DNA of 25,882 bases. It comes from a virus. How positions within the stretch are numbered: position 1 is the first letter of the stretch; the number at the start of each line of letters is the position of its first letter. Made by a program: the position numbers and the translations under genes. The notes beneath the pieces were generated by a model. It searched no databases, was not told the origin of the DNA, and was given only the letters and a program-made list of their open reading frames with translations. The stretch covers positions 1 to 25,882 of IMG/VR virus record IMGVR_UViG_3300025769_000732; one strand, given 5' to 3'. Below are positions 17,820 to 20,941 of the stretch, piece by piece.

Positions 17820-18056
17820 ATGGCGGCTAATACAATCACAATCAACGAAAAAGAATATGACATCGATGCGATGACCGATGCCGAAAAATATTTGGCGGGG
17901 CAAATCGATGCACAAAACCGCAAGATGGCGGGAATACAATTTGACCTCGATGCGGTCGCAATGGCGAAACAAGGTTTCGTGAACGCACTCGCCGCATCAC
18001 TCGAGAACGAGGATAAAGATGGCGAGAACGGCAACGGAAGCGCACAAGCGGATTGA
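17820..18056 (+). CDS. DUF6447-like small protein
   Basis: The 78-residue protein has ITINEKEYDIDAMTDAEKYL followed by a helical part with QIDAQNRKMAGIQFDLDAVAMAKQGFVNAL and an acidic, low-complexity tail. The opening (I.IN.KEYD.D..TDE-like) and the helix pattern match what I recall of the DUF6447 type, seen mainly in aquatic phages and bacteria; function is unknown. A strong AAAGGA site lies before the start. Its 3' end overlaps the next gene by 38 bases. Confidence 0.6.
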   Translation: MAANTITINEKEYDIDAMTDAEKYLAGQIDAQNRKMAGIQFDLDAVAMAKQGFVNALAASLENEDKDGENGNGSAQAD

Positions 18057-18210
18057 TGATTTGGAACCTCGAGTCACCAGGGTTGAAACGCAAGTTGATG
18101 AACGGTGGCGCGAGACAATTATCCGGATCAAACGCATCGAAACCATCATGATCTCGGTGGCCGGTGCAATTATCCTCATGCTCGGATCGATCCTCATGAA
18201 AATGGGTTGA
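18019..18210 (+). CDS. XhlA-like small membrane protein, possible lysis accessory
   Basis: This 63-residue protein has an N-terminal charged coiled coil (IDDLEPRVTRVETQVDERW) and one C-terminal membrane segment (IMISVAGAIILMLGSILM). That layout matches haemolysin XhlA-type phage proteins, which help holins or endolysins at the membrane in Bacillus phages. The call rests on architecture only. GAGGA at 18009-18013 gives a close ribosome site. It overlaps the upstream gene by 38 bases and is the last gene before a terminator. Confidence 0.55.
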   Translation: MARTATEAHKRIDDLEPRVTRVETQVDERWRETIIRIKRIETIMISVAGAIILMLGSILMKMG

Positions 18211-18264: not shown

Positions 18265-18293
18265 ATAAGGCGTGTATTTATTACGCGCCTTAT
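18265..18293 (+). terminator. Rho-independent terminator ending the structural operon
   Basis: A 12-base-pair stem (18265-18276 with 18282-18293, one G-U pair) closes a five-base loop and is followed by TTCTATTTC. The AAGGCG/CGCCTT core and T-rich tail are typical. It separates the late structural genes from the lysis genes, which have their own promoter-like element about 40 bases further on. Confidence 0.8.
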
Positions 18294-18379: not shown

Positions 18380-18841
18380 ATGATCGCCGAACTTGCCGCG
18401 TTCAATGCTGCATTCGCAACCGTCAAAGCCACGATCAACGCGGGTCGTGATATTATGTCTTGCGCCAATTCCATCGGTGACATGATCGGAGCCGAGGAAC
18501 AATTAAGGGCGCGGGGTGATCGCAAGAAAAACTCGATGTGGTCAAAACTTGCCGGCAAAGACACCAACGATTTCGAAGAATTTATGGCCATCGAAAAGAT
18601 GCGCAACCAACGAAAAGAGTTGATGTCGGCGTTGCAATTATACGGCCGGCCAGGGTTGAAAGACGATTTCATCAAGTTCGAGGTCGAGGCCAGAAAGAAA
18701 CGCAGGGCGCAAGCGATCGCCGCCGAGAAACAGAAACAAACAATCATCGAGTGGGCCGTTGGCGGATTTATTGTCATCCTGGGGATCGCGGGAATGGCGT
18801 TCACGTTGTGGTTCATCGGAAAAGGCCAGGGCAAGTGGTGA
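18380..18841 (+). CDS. Conserved-looking phage membrane protein with C-terminal anchor, function unknown
   Basis: The 153-residue protein begins IAELAAFNAAFATVKATI, a hydrophobic-amphipathic helix. A charged helical stretch with WSKLAGKDTNDFEEFMAIEKM follows, then LYGRPGLKDDFIKFEVEARKKRR, and a membrane segment near residues 122-145 (WAVGGFIVILGIAGMAFTLWF) with a short outside tail. The ATG at 18380 is chosen because AAGGG lies just upstream; the frame is open further upstream but crosses the terminator and promoter-like element. Its place at the head of the lysis cassette suggests a role in lysis or membrane remodelling, which is inference. A single membrane segment after a coiled region would also fit an inner-membrane spanin-like shape reversed in order. 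Confidence 0.6.
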   Translation: MIAELAAFNAAFATVKATINAGRDIMSCANSIGDMIGAEEQLRARGDRKKNSMWSKLAGKDTNDFEEFMAIEKMRNQRKELMSALQLYGRPGLKDDFIKFEVEARKKRRAQAIAAEKQKQTIIEWAVGGFIVILGIAGMAFTLWFIGKGQGKW

Positions 18842-18880
18842 ATGAAAATGAGGCAAATCGGGCCGATGCGTTGGGCGGTC

Positions 18881-18909
18881 TATTCTGAAACCGGATTTGT
18901 TGTTATAAT
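18881..18909 (+). promoter_or_regulatory. Promoter-like element B before the EF-hand gene
   Basis: TATAAT at 18904-18909 follows TATTCT at 18881-18886 with a 17-base spacer, 44 bases before the ATG at 18948. It shares GCGGT, AAACC and GTTATAATT in the same order with element A at 18305-18338, with a two-base difference in spacing. Confidence 0.5.
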
Positions 18910-18947
18910 TACGAGCGACCGAAAAATCGCAGAAAGGTTTTTGACCA

Positions 18948-19289
18948 ATGACAGAGTTTGAAAACGCCGATCTCAACGGCAATGGAACCATCGAACAAGA
19001 TGAATGGGATAAACTGGCACTCGAGGATCGCCGGCGTGAAATGATCGATGCCGATCTCAAACGCGACAGCCAACGCCGGATGGCCTGGTTTGCGTTGTCG
19101 GGCATGTTGCTCTATCCATTCGCGGTGTTGCTCTCAGCGGCCTTGGGATTGAGCCAGGCGGCGGAAATCATCGGGTCGATGGCCTCGATATACTTTGTAT
19201 CGATTGCCGCACTTGTGGGCGCGTTTTTCGGGTTCTCAAATATGGGCAATAAGCCATCGATGAAATCAGATAAAGGAACGATGCAATGA
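18948..19289 (+). CDS. EF-hand membrane protein, holin-like
   Basis: This 113-residue protein combines a calcium-binding loop with two membrane segments. Residues 8-19 form a canonical EF-hand loop with D8, N10, N12, T14, E16 and E19 at the ligand positions. A charged helix (DRRREMIDADLKRDSQRRM) follows. Membrane segments lie at about 46-66 (FALSGMLLYPFAVLLSAALG) and 74-97 (IIGSMASIYFVSIAALVGAFF). The tail is basic. Two membrane spans in a lysis cassette suggest a holin or holin regulator. A single EF-hand loop fused to such spans is unusual; I know of similar proteins only as uncharacterised ORFs of aquatic phages. It has its own promoter-like element and overlaps the next gene by four bases (ATGA). 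Confidence 0.72.
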   Translation: MTEFENADLNGNGTIEQDEWDKLALEDRRREMIDADLKRDSQRRMAWFALSGMLLYPFAVLLSAALGLSQAAEIIGSMASIYFVSIAALVGAFFGFSNMGNKPSMKSDKGTMQ

Positions 19290-19639
19290 TTGGGCAAATC
19301 CTGGGAAGCCTGGGCGGATTGGCGAAATCATATATTGATTCGAAAACCGCCATCAAACTCACCGAGGCGGAAATCAAGAAAAAGCAACTCACCGGCGAGA
19401 TCGATTGGGATTTGGCCGCAATCAAGGCGACCGAAAATTCCTGGAAAGATGAATGGATCACGTTGTTGTTCTCGATCCCTCTCATCCTGGCGTTTTGCGG
19501 CGATTGGGGGCGGCAAGTGGTGGCCGATGGGTTTGCCGCACTCGAGGTGATGCCACAGTGGTATCAGGTCGCGTTGGGGGCCGTTGTGAGTGCAAGCGTG
19601 GGCATCCGGTCAGTCTCGAGGTTTTTCGGCAAGAAATGA
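19286..19639 (+). CDS. Holin, 3TM (gene transfer agent) type
   Basis: The 117-residue protein begins with a glycine-rich helix, then a charged region (TEAEIKKKQLTGEIDWDLAAIKA). The family-typical SWKDEWITLLFSIPLILAFCGD follows, then GFAALEVMPQWYQVALGAVV and SASVGIRSVSRFFGKK. The pattern W.DE..TLL...PL, P.WY and AS.GIR is that of 3TM holins used for release of phages and gene transfer agents. It forms membrane lesions that let the endolysin reach the wall. It is coupled by ATGA overlaps to the genes on both sides. Confidence 0.85.
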   Translation: MIGQILGSLGGLAKSYIDSKTAIKLTEAEIKKKQLTGEIDWDLAAIKATENSWKDEWITLLFSIPLILAFCGDWGRQVVADGFAALEVMPQWYQVALGAVVSASVGIRSVSRFFGKK

Positions 19640-20124
19640 GTTTCGGTTTTGACCATATCAAGGGCATCGCCGCCGCCGGCGGTGCAATCATCGCCGCAAT
19701 CAGTGGCGGTGTCACCCTATCCGGAAAACTCGGATGGGATTGGTTCGATCGTCCGATCCTGGAATGGTCGCCGGAACACTTTGAAATCAGCAATGGGCCG
19801 ATCGATGAGGGTTTTCGCGTGATCGTTGCCAGGCAAAAGTTGCGCGATGATTGCGAGGTCATCGGATTCACGGTCGAGATCAGGGATTCCGATTTCGTTG
19901 TGTTTCCGGCAACGCCATCGGTGGCCAAGTTCTCAGGGCCGGCAAGCGATACGGTCGATCGATTTGGGTATCGAGTCTATATCCGCGAGATGGATATGTA
20001 CCAGGTCGCACCAGGCGAGGCGACATTGTTGGGACAGATCAAATATAATTGTCCGGAAGGTGAACAAATCGTCACCTATCCGGCGCATGAAAACCTCAAT
20101 TTCATCATCGAGGAAGGGAATTGA
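19636..20124 (+). CDS. Membrane-anchored beta-domain protein of the lysis cassette, function unknown
   Basis: The 162-residue protein has one N-terminal membrane segment (GIAAAGGAIIAAISGGVTLSG). After it comes a beta-rich domain, with LEWSPEHFEISNGPIDEGF and RDDCEVIGFTVEIRDSDFVVF, then GYRVYIREMDMYQVAPGE and LGQIKYNCPEGEQIVTYPA. The start at 19636 is chosen because its ATGA overlaps the holin stop; the same frame is open further upstream inside the holin gene. The topology suggests a domain anchored on the outer face of the inner membrane, with two cysteines far apart. I do not recognise a family. It lies between holin and endolysin, so a role in lysis or envelope protection is possible. Confidence 0.6.
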   Translation: MSFGFDHIKGIAAAGGAIIAAISGGVTLSGKLGWDWFDRPILEWSPEHFEISNGPIDEGFRVIVARQKLRDDCEVIGFTVEIRDSDFVVFPATPSVAKFSGPASDTVDRFGYRVYIREMDMYQVAPGEATLLGQIKYNCPEGEQIVTYPAHENLNFIIEEGN

Positions 20125-20125
20125 A

Positions 20126-20941
20126 ATGAACTTAACGTTGGAGCAAACAAAACAGTTGATCGAGGGCAATCGAGAGTTCGAGGCATGGCATGAATTGTTT
20201 GAGCATTTCTTGCCAAAATATGAAATCGATTCACCAAATCGAATGGCGATGTTCTTTGCCCAATGCGGCCATGAATCGCTCAACTTTCGCGTTCTCGAGG
20301 AAAATCTCAATTACAGCGCAAAGGGTTTGAATGCGGTATTCCCGAAATATTTTAAGAACGCCGGAAGGGAAGCGAATGATTTCCATCGTGATCCTCAACG
20401 CATTGCTAATGTCGTCTATTCTAATCGCATGGGCAACGGAGACATTGAATCCGGCGATGGGTGGTTGTTCCGAGGAAAAGGTGCCATCCAACTCACCGGT
20501 CGAAACAACACCACCGGATTCGCAGATTCGATTGGTCGATCGGTAGAGCGAACCCTCGAATATCTATTCACCAAAGAGGGCGCACTCGAGGCGGCGTGTT
20601 GGTTCTGGAAAGTGAACGGTTTGAATGATTTTTCGAACGACATCAAAAAAGCCACCCGCAAGATCAATGGCGGAACGATTGGGATTGCCGATCGAACCCA
20701 TCATTATCATCGAGCGTTGGAAATCCTGGGCGGAACTTACACAATGAAAGCATCGCCGATTTTGTTAAAAGTTGGATCGACCGGTGATCGAGTGAAACAA
20801 ATCCAGGAAAAACTTGGTGAGGATGCCGATGGCATCTTTGGCCTGGTCACAAAGCAAGCGGTCGAGAAATGGCAAGAGGCAAACGGTTTGGTTGTTGATG
20901 GCATTGTCGGGCCGAAAACATTCGCCGCGATGATCGGATGA
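20126..20941 (+). CDS. Endolysin: GH19 muramidase/chitinase-like domain + peptidoglycan-binding domain
   Basis: This cytoplasmic enzyme cuts the glycan strands of the host wall at the end of infection. The 271-residue protein has a GH19 domain. Residues 40-63 include FFAQCGHES and VLEENLNY, with Glu50 and Glu58/59 as candidate catalytic acids. The GH19 hallmark GDGWLFRGKGAIQLTGR follows. Residues about 206-271 are a PG_binding_1 repeat (LKVGSTGDRVKQIQEKLG, then DGIFGLVTKQAV and VDGIVGPKT). No signal peptide is seen, which fits holin-dependent release. Start 20126 is chosen by alignment with family length and one base after the previous stop; the same frame continues upstream without need. It overlaps the next gene by four bases. 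Confidence 0.92.
   Translation: MNLTLEQTKQLIEGNREFEAWHELFEHFLPKYEIDSPNRMAMFFAQCGHESLNFRVLEENLNYSAKGLNAVFPKYFKNAGREANDFHRDPQRIANVVYSNRMGNGDIESGDGWLFRGKGAIQLTGRNNTTGFADSIGRSVERTLEYLFTKEGALEAACWFWKVNGLNDFSNDIKKATRKINGGTIGIADRTHHYHRALEILGGTYTMKASPILLKVGSTGDRVKQIQEKLGEDADGIFGLVTKQAVEKWQEANGLVVDGIVGPKTFAAMIG

Follow-up and report, generated by a model that had tools for sequence, protein, structure and literature searches.

In the LysF1a/LysF1b system of mycobacteriophage F1, a two-span N-in/C-in protein cooperates with a second membrane protein (PMC13056207). The T5 endolysin, EndoT5, is mentioned as a Ca2+-activated phage lysis enzyme (PMC10487532). The genome paper on the Melnitz methylophages reports one lysin-like gene and suggests that CsgG, a curli pore, takes the place of a pinholin (PMC9004378). 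We have analyzed a stretch of viral DNA of 25,882 nucleotides (the window) that encodes a small protein with an EF-hand loop followed by two membrane spans, which we call EF-2TM. An earlier sequence-only reading had proposed that such a protein could tie lysis to calcium, by a mechanism that its author did not know as described. We found no paper on an EF-hand holin in the literature.

EF-2TM is probably part of the host-lysis machinery. Our main reading, to which we give a probability of about one half, is that it is a class II-type holin-like protein with a single functional cytoplasmic EF-hand, acting either as a holin alone or as the coupled partner of one. The broader statement that it is a membrane protein of lysis is very likely to be correct.

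The EF-2TM gene and its neighbors in the window

The features of the window are listed in Table 1. The translation of EF-2TM, MTEFENADLNGNGTIEQDEWDKLALEDRRREMIDADLKRDSQRRMAWFALSGMLLYPFAVLLSAALGLSQAAEIIGSMASIYFVSIAALVGAFFGFSNMGNKPSMKSDKGTMQ, contains at residues 8–19 every canonical position of an EF loop (D1, N3, N5, G6, T7, I8, E9 and E12; pattern D8-x-N10-x-N12-G13-T14-I15-x-x-x-E19), with oxygen-donor ligands at positions 1, 3, 5, 9 and 12, a glycine at 6 and an aliphatic residue at 8. The full ligand set noticed earlier was thus confirmed by the translation and by the family profile, and the two spans expected after the loop were recovered by hydropathy. Only one loop per chain was found by translation and motif scan, and not a pair of EF-hands. 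Searched as a single protein, the window EF-2TM matched Pfam EF-hand_5 with E=0.0011, under the gathering score, and it matched no PHROG.

Table 1. Features of the EF-2TM region of the window
Feature	Position	Strand	Evidence
63-aa coiled coil with C-terminal span, weakly XhlA-like	18019..18210	+	phrog_1193, E=0.053
TAcc, tail-anchored coiled-coil protein (phrog_32327)	18380..18841	+	PHROG match; EF-2TM neighbor in several clades
39-aa micro-ORF MKMRQIGPMRWAVYSETGFVVIITSDRKIAERFLTNDRV	18842..18961	+	14-base overlap with EF-2TM start
EF-2TM (EF-hand two-span protein), 113 aa	18948..19289	+	translation, family searches, hydropathy
12-residue EF loop, D8-LNGNGTIEQD-E19	18969..19004	+	translation, motif, profile and codon evidence
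Charged exit helix of EF-2TM, predicted continuous with span 1	19005..19085	+	alignment-based model (helix 17–65)
Membrane span 1, residues 48–66	19089..19145	+	hydropathy
Membrane span 2, residues 78–96	19179..19235	+	hydropathy
Holin-like protein, phrog_2524 (DUF3154-like)	19286..19639	+	PHROG match; 4-base ATGA overlap with EF-2TM stop
162-aa protein, one N-terminal span; possible extra lysis component	19636..20124	+	no family match
Endolysin, C-terminal PG_binding_1 domain	20126..20941	+	phrog_181, E=2.8e-68

The sequence-only reading had placed EF-2TM directly before a 3TM holin. The adjacency is correct, as the two genes overlap, and other phages carry homologs of the downstream gene under the annotation DUF3154, the older name of Pfam GTA_holin_3TM. 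The assignment to that family is less secure: the gene belongs to phrog_2524 (function unknown), its product has one strong and one weaker span, and its profile aligned with the GTA_holin_3TM cluster at an unconvincing 28% in hhalign. The window endolysin has neither a signal nor a membrane span, and therefore needs a membrane hole.

A strong terminator-like hairpin (18265–18293; 12 pairs, T-rich tail) is located between the XhlA-like gene and TAcc, and suggests that the lysis unit of the window begins downstream of it. A promoter-like GTTATAATT is present upstream of both TAcc and EF-2TM. We do not claim a promoter there, because the EF-2TM copy sits inside the micro-ORF, which has relatives elsewhere.

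A family of aquatic phage proteins with a conserved EF loop

By sequence similarity, EF-2TM is a member of an unnamed phage family found at hundreds of aquatic phage loci. Several scans of IMG/VR yielded >300 family loci each. Relatives annotated only as 'hypothetical protein' are present in roseophages CRP-345, CRP-207, CRP-810, CRP-1 and CRP-9, in Pelagibacter phage HTVC008M and four Melnitz methylophages, and in Limnohabitans phages DC31 and DC33. In bacterial genomes, relatives were found only on two contigs of one Rhodobacteraceae metagenome bin. Among 56 family members, 18 matched phrog_27150 and 6 matched phrog_1544.

We grouped the family into working clades: A (window-like), B (HTVC008M-like), C (CRP-345-like), D (EF-less, DC33-like), E (DC31-like) and F (CRP-1-like). 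In profile comparisons, the post-loop region of clades A/B/C matched clade E at 97.5%, clade F at 96.4% and the EF-less clade D at 98.2% (hhalign, E=3e-14). As the post-loop regions link the EF clades with clade D, the EF-hand is a module on a two-span core. The EF-less two-span relatives (L086, L216-L244) occur in non-marine isolates (DC33, freshwater; Manatee Spring); their genes have short ORFs on one side and spanin-type/endolysin genes on the other, and are unannotated in DC33. A sea-water-specific calcium adaptation is not supported, since freshwater phage DC31 and its relatives retain the EF loop.

The loop is retained in 377 of the 379 EF-type relatives collected, and both exceptions are truncated at contig ends. 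EF-hand_5 was matched by 40/56 family members (best E=1.4e-6), and the family profile matched calmodulin EF-hands with E=2e-8. We compared 216 distinct loop DNAs and observed the following. Positions D1, G6 and E12 are invariant, and they are encoded by GAT/GAC, all four glycine codons and GAA/GAG, respectively. D/N/S occur at positions 3 and 5 and I/V/L at position 8; in 214 of the 216, position 9 has T/D/S/E. Positions 2, 7, 10 and 11 vary freely. D8, G13 and E19 are also invariant in 57 representatives below 85% identity; this set was pre-filtered for the loop pattern, so that 377/379 is the unbiased conservation figure. Because D1, G6 and E12 are fixed while their synonymous codons vary, the loop itself is under selection.

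These comparisons indicate that the EF loop of the family is intact and under purifying selection, and its pattern of fixed ligands and free non-ligand positions fits metal co-ordination. Among the other ORFs of these loci, 1.04 million residues in all, the loop pattern turned up three times; this background rate, together with the codon evidence, rules out a chance motif. We consider it likely that the loop binds Ca2+ (or Ca2+/Mg2+); an unpaired EF-hand whose entry helix is short may do so weakly.

The explanation that competes best with our main reading is that the EF-hand is a constitutive, Ca2+/Mg2+-stabilized structural cap or oligomerization knob on a lysis protein, saturated or irrelevant in vivo, with lysis being calcium-independent. 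The single loop with its short entry helix is in line with this explanation, as is the fact that clade D performs without a loop, and the lysis-cassette context described below would hold equally for it. The exact conservation of all the ligand positions, even of those that do not pack, exceeds what a generic acidic cap needs, however, and we regard this alternative as possible but rather unlikely.

Lysis-cassette context and the exception of clade B

The neighbor counts draw on the top 80 matches of each scan; they are not independent. In these counts, a same-strand endolysin was present within 3 kb at all 185 adequately flanked loci of clades A, C, D, E and F. A holin-type gene was directly downstream of the family gene at 60 of these 185 endolysin-linked loci, and the remaining 125/185 cassettes showed neither a phrog_2524 nor a GTA-type holin gene near it. 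In five of the six clades, the family gene keeps its place next to genes for an endolysin, a spanin or a holin. The gene that follows it in clades A and C is in most cases either phrog_2524 or a true GTA_holin_3TM (clusters of 70 and 39 loci); the GTA_holin_3TM copy in CRP-810 matches PF11351 with E=2.5e-20 and also phrog_3427 'holin'. The spacing to the downstream gene is mostly a −4 coupling overlap (63 loci). The genes downstream of EF-2TM encode a spanin-type protein and an M15 endolysin in clade E, and an M15 endolysin and a spanin-like protein in clade F. The EF-less genes of clade D adjoin spanin-type and endolysin genes.

The cassette of roseophage CRP-1 consists of TAcc, a basic ORF, EF-2TM, the M15 endolysin and a spanin-like protein. 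When the small and unannotated proteins of CRP-1 were scanned by hydropathy, EF-2TM and the spanin-like protein were the only ones with two spans. As the cassettes lacking a phrog_2524 or GTA-type holin gene have an endolysin and mostly a spanin, EF-2TM is the best holin candidate in them. Proteins with a lipobox-like N-terminus and a C-terminal span are encoded beside the endolysin in CRP-9 (L327 2365-2739) and CRP-1 (L328 4870-5211), where they are annotated as hypothetical; the CRP-345 homolog is annotated 'spanin2 family'. These proteins look like unimolecular spanins.

TAcc is repeatedly found beside EF-2TM: clades A, C, E and F have this pairing, as do some clade-B-type loci. It is a lysis-cassette protein, and in CRP-6 it neighbors an unrelated two-span protein. 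Micro-ORFs like that of the window (WVV...VVIIT..KRIAE) precede EF-2TM in several loci of clades C and F.

In CRP-6 and CRP-13, the slot before phrog_2524 is filled by this unrelated two-span protein; it was rejected as an EF-2TM homolog (hhalign at most 1.3%). Its presence suggests that the slot requires a two-span membrane protein and that the EF-hand is an added control. The protein is phrog_10198-like (L331 2786-2995, L332 1224-1469) and is itself a holin-partner candidate. A short ORF related to it follows phrog_2524 in HMO-2011 (L333 3529-3642).

A holin or holin-partner role of EF-2TM is well supported by where the gene lies in every clade except one, and by the natural EF-less version found in cassettes of the same type. 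To this extent the role in lysis proposed from the sequence is partly supported; what does not accord with it is clade B, the clade of T4-like myophages, where the gene mostly lies among baseplate-hub and tape-measure genes. Of 35 adequately flanked clade B loci (80 best matches per scan), 28 have this arrangement and are not beside an endolysin, and HTVC008M and Melnitz share it. The position of clade B is the main counter-evidence to the lysis reading. It would be explained if EF-2TM were a virion or assembly protein, such as a baseplate-hub membrane anchor or an entry-active tail-tip protein, with its position in lysis cassettes being incidental; the clade B gene has gp26/gp51-like baseplate-hub genes on one side and the tape-measure gene on the other. 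This is improbable, since every other clade, the EF-less one included, is found in lysis cassettes next to endolysin genes. Moreover, some clade-B-type proteins in other contexts are paired with TAcc (L142, L149, L156), and in L146 a phage lysozyme (PF00959, E=2.3e-8) is encoded four genes before EF-2TM, in one run of genes on the same strand. The TAcc pairing and the lysozyme run favor a lysis role for clade-B-type proteins, short of proof.

On the large myophage contigs L142, L146 and L149, EF-2TM appears, as judged by eye from the sequence, to lie in accessory gene islands, where the flanking genes resemble those for radical SAM, carbamoyltransferase-like, glycosyltransferase-like and HAD-like proteins.

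A role of EF-2TM as an antiholin or as a sensor for lysis inhibition, in which the apo form would block the downstream holin until Ca2+ binding (or loss) frees it, would agree with the translational coupling to a holin-type gene and with two holin-like genes per cassette, as in the paired proteins of F1 phages (PMC13056207), but it is an unpromising explanation since 125/185 cassettes (80 best matches per scan) have no phrog_2524/GTA-type holin nearby to inhibit.

Proposed mechanism and comparison with known systems

In the family, K+R residues average 0.7 in the loop between the spans, 5.8 ahead of span 1 and 2.6 in the C-terminal tail. As these residues are sparse between the spans and rich on both outer sides, both termini are predicted to be inside, giving a two-span N-in/C-in topology on charge and hydropathy alone. 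The EF-hand would then be cytoplasmic and would respond to calcium entry, and not directly to external calcium. An alignment-based model of modest confidence (pTM 0.45) has a single helix at 17–65 that takes in both the EF exit helix and span 1. A structure search with this model found nothing of use in the PDB, and its other matches were viral and unnamed.

According to our main reading, EF-2TM would act as the holin where it is alone in the cassette, and as a translationally coupled partner where it precedes a second holin, as in the window. Its role in the window could be accessory, since a second holin candidate directly follows. The cytoplasmic loop would bind Ca2+, and binding would pair EF-2TM protomers and so tune hole formation. 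Lone EF-hands usually pair with another; because of this, and because the exit helix seems continuous with span 1, Ca2+-driven pairing is the most likely route. The first Ca2+ passing through early lesions could then accelerate the lesion by positive feedback. It is plausible that calcium tunes EF-2TM-linked lysis, and we propose only tentatively that Ca2+ regulates hole formation by EF-2TM. The existence of clade D shows calcium to be dispensable for the function of the two-span core, and this clade provides a natural loop-deletion control.

In its most extended form, the proposal would be that aquatic phages possess a holin class with a built-in cytoplasmic calcium sensor, in which an early Ca2+ leak pairs the EF-hands and causes abrupt, cooperative opening, so that lysis becomes a switch set off by calcium, and that this is the missing holin of pelagimyophages and Melnitz-like phages, for which none had been recognized. 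This form is speculative and we think it rather doubtful. EF-2TM is nevertheless an alternative holin candidate for Melnitz and the pelagimyophages. The family is best read, from its sequences, as a widespread, unnamed holin-type variant with a built-in calcium loop. If so, a calcium-loop holin is at work in the phages of bacteria that abound in the sea and in fresh water (SAR11, OM43, Roseobacter, Limnohabitans), and divalent-ion entry becomes a testable component of lysis timing.

Among known systems, class II holins/pinholins of the lambdoid S21 type are alike in length (∼100 aa), in their two spans, in the predicted N-in/C-in topology and in having endolysin/spanin neighbors. They differ in that EF-2TM has an EF-hand and no recognizable sequence similarity to them, and its holin role is predicted. 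The tested EF-2TM members matched no named holin in PHROGs and no named fold, and Pfam Phage_holin_3_6 was matched by 1/56 family members (E=0.0087). GTA_holin_3TM (PF11351, phrog_3427) and phrog_2524 are direct downstream partners in clades A and C and are separate families: EF-2TM aligned weakly with phrog_2524 (hhalign, 56%) and did not match the GTA_holin_3TM profile (hhalign, 0.4%).

Calmodulin-type EF-hand sensors have all the ligand positions in common with EF-2TM (profile E=2e-8). These sensors usually pair two EF-hands, whereas EF-2TM has a single loop, which is preceded by a short entry helix and joined to a membrane hairpin. The LysF1a/LysF1b system is without an EF-hand, has another partner and belongs to an actinobacterial host. 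In EndoT5, Ca2+ control is exerted on the enzyme (PMC10487532), whereas in EF-2TM the putative calcium loop is carried by the membrane component.
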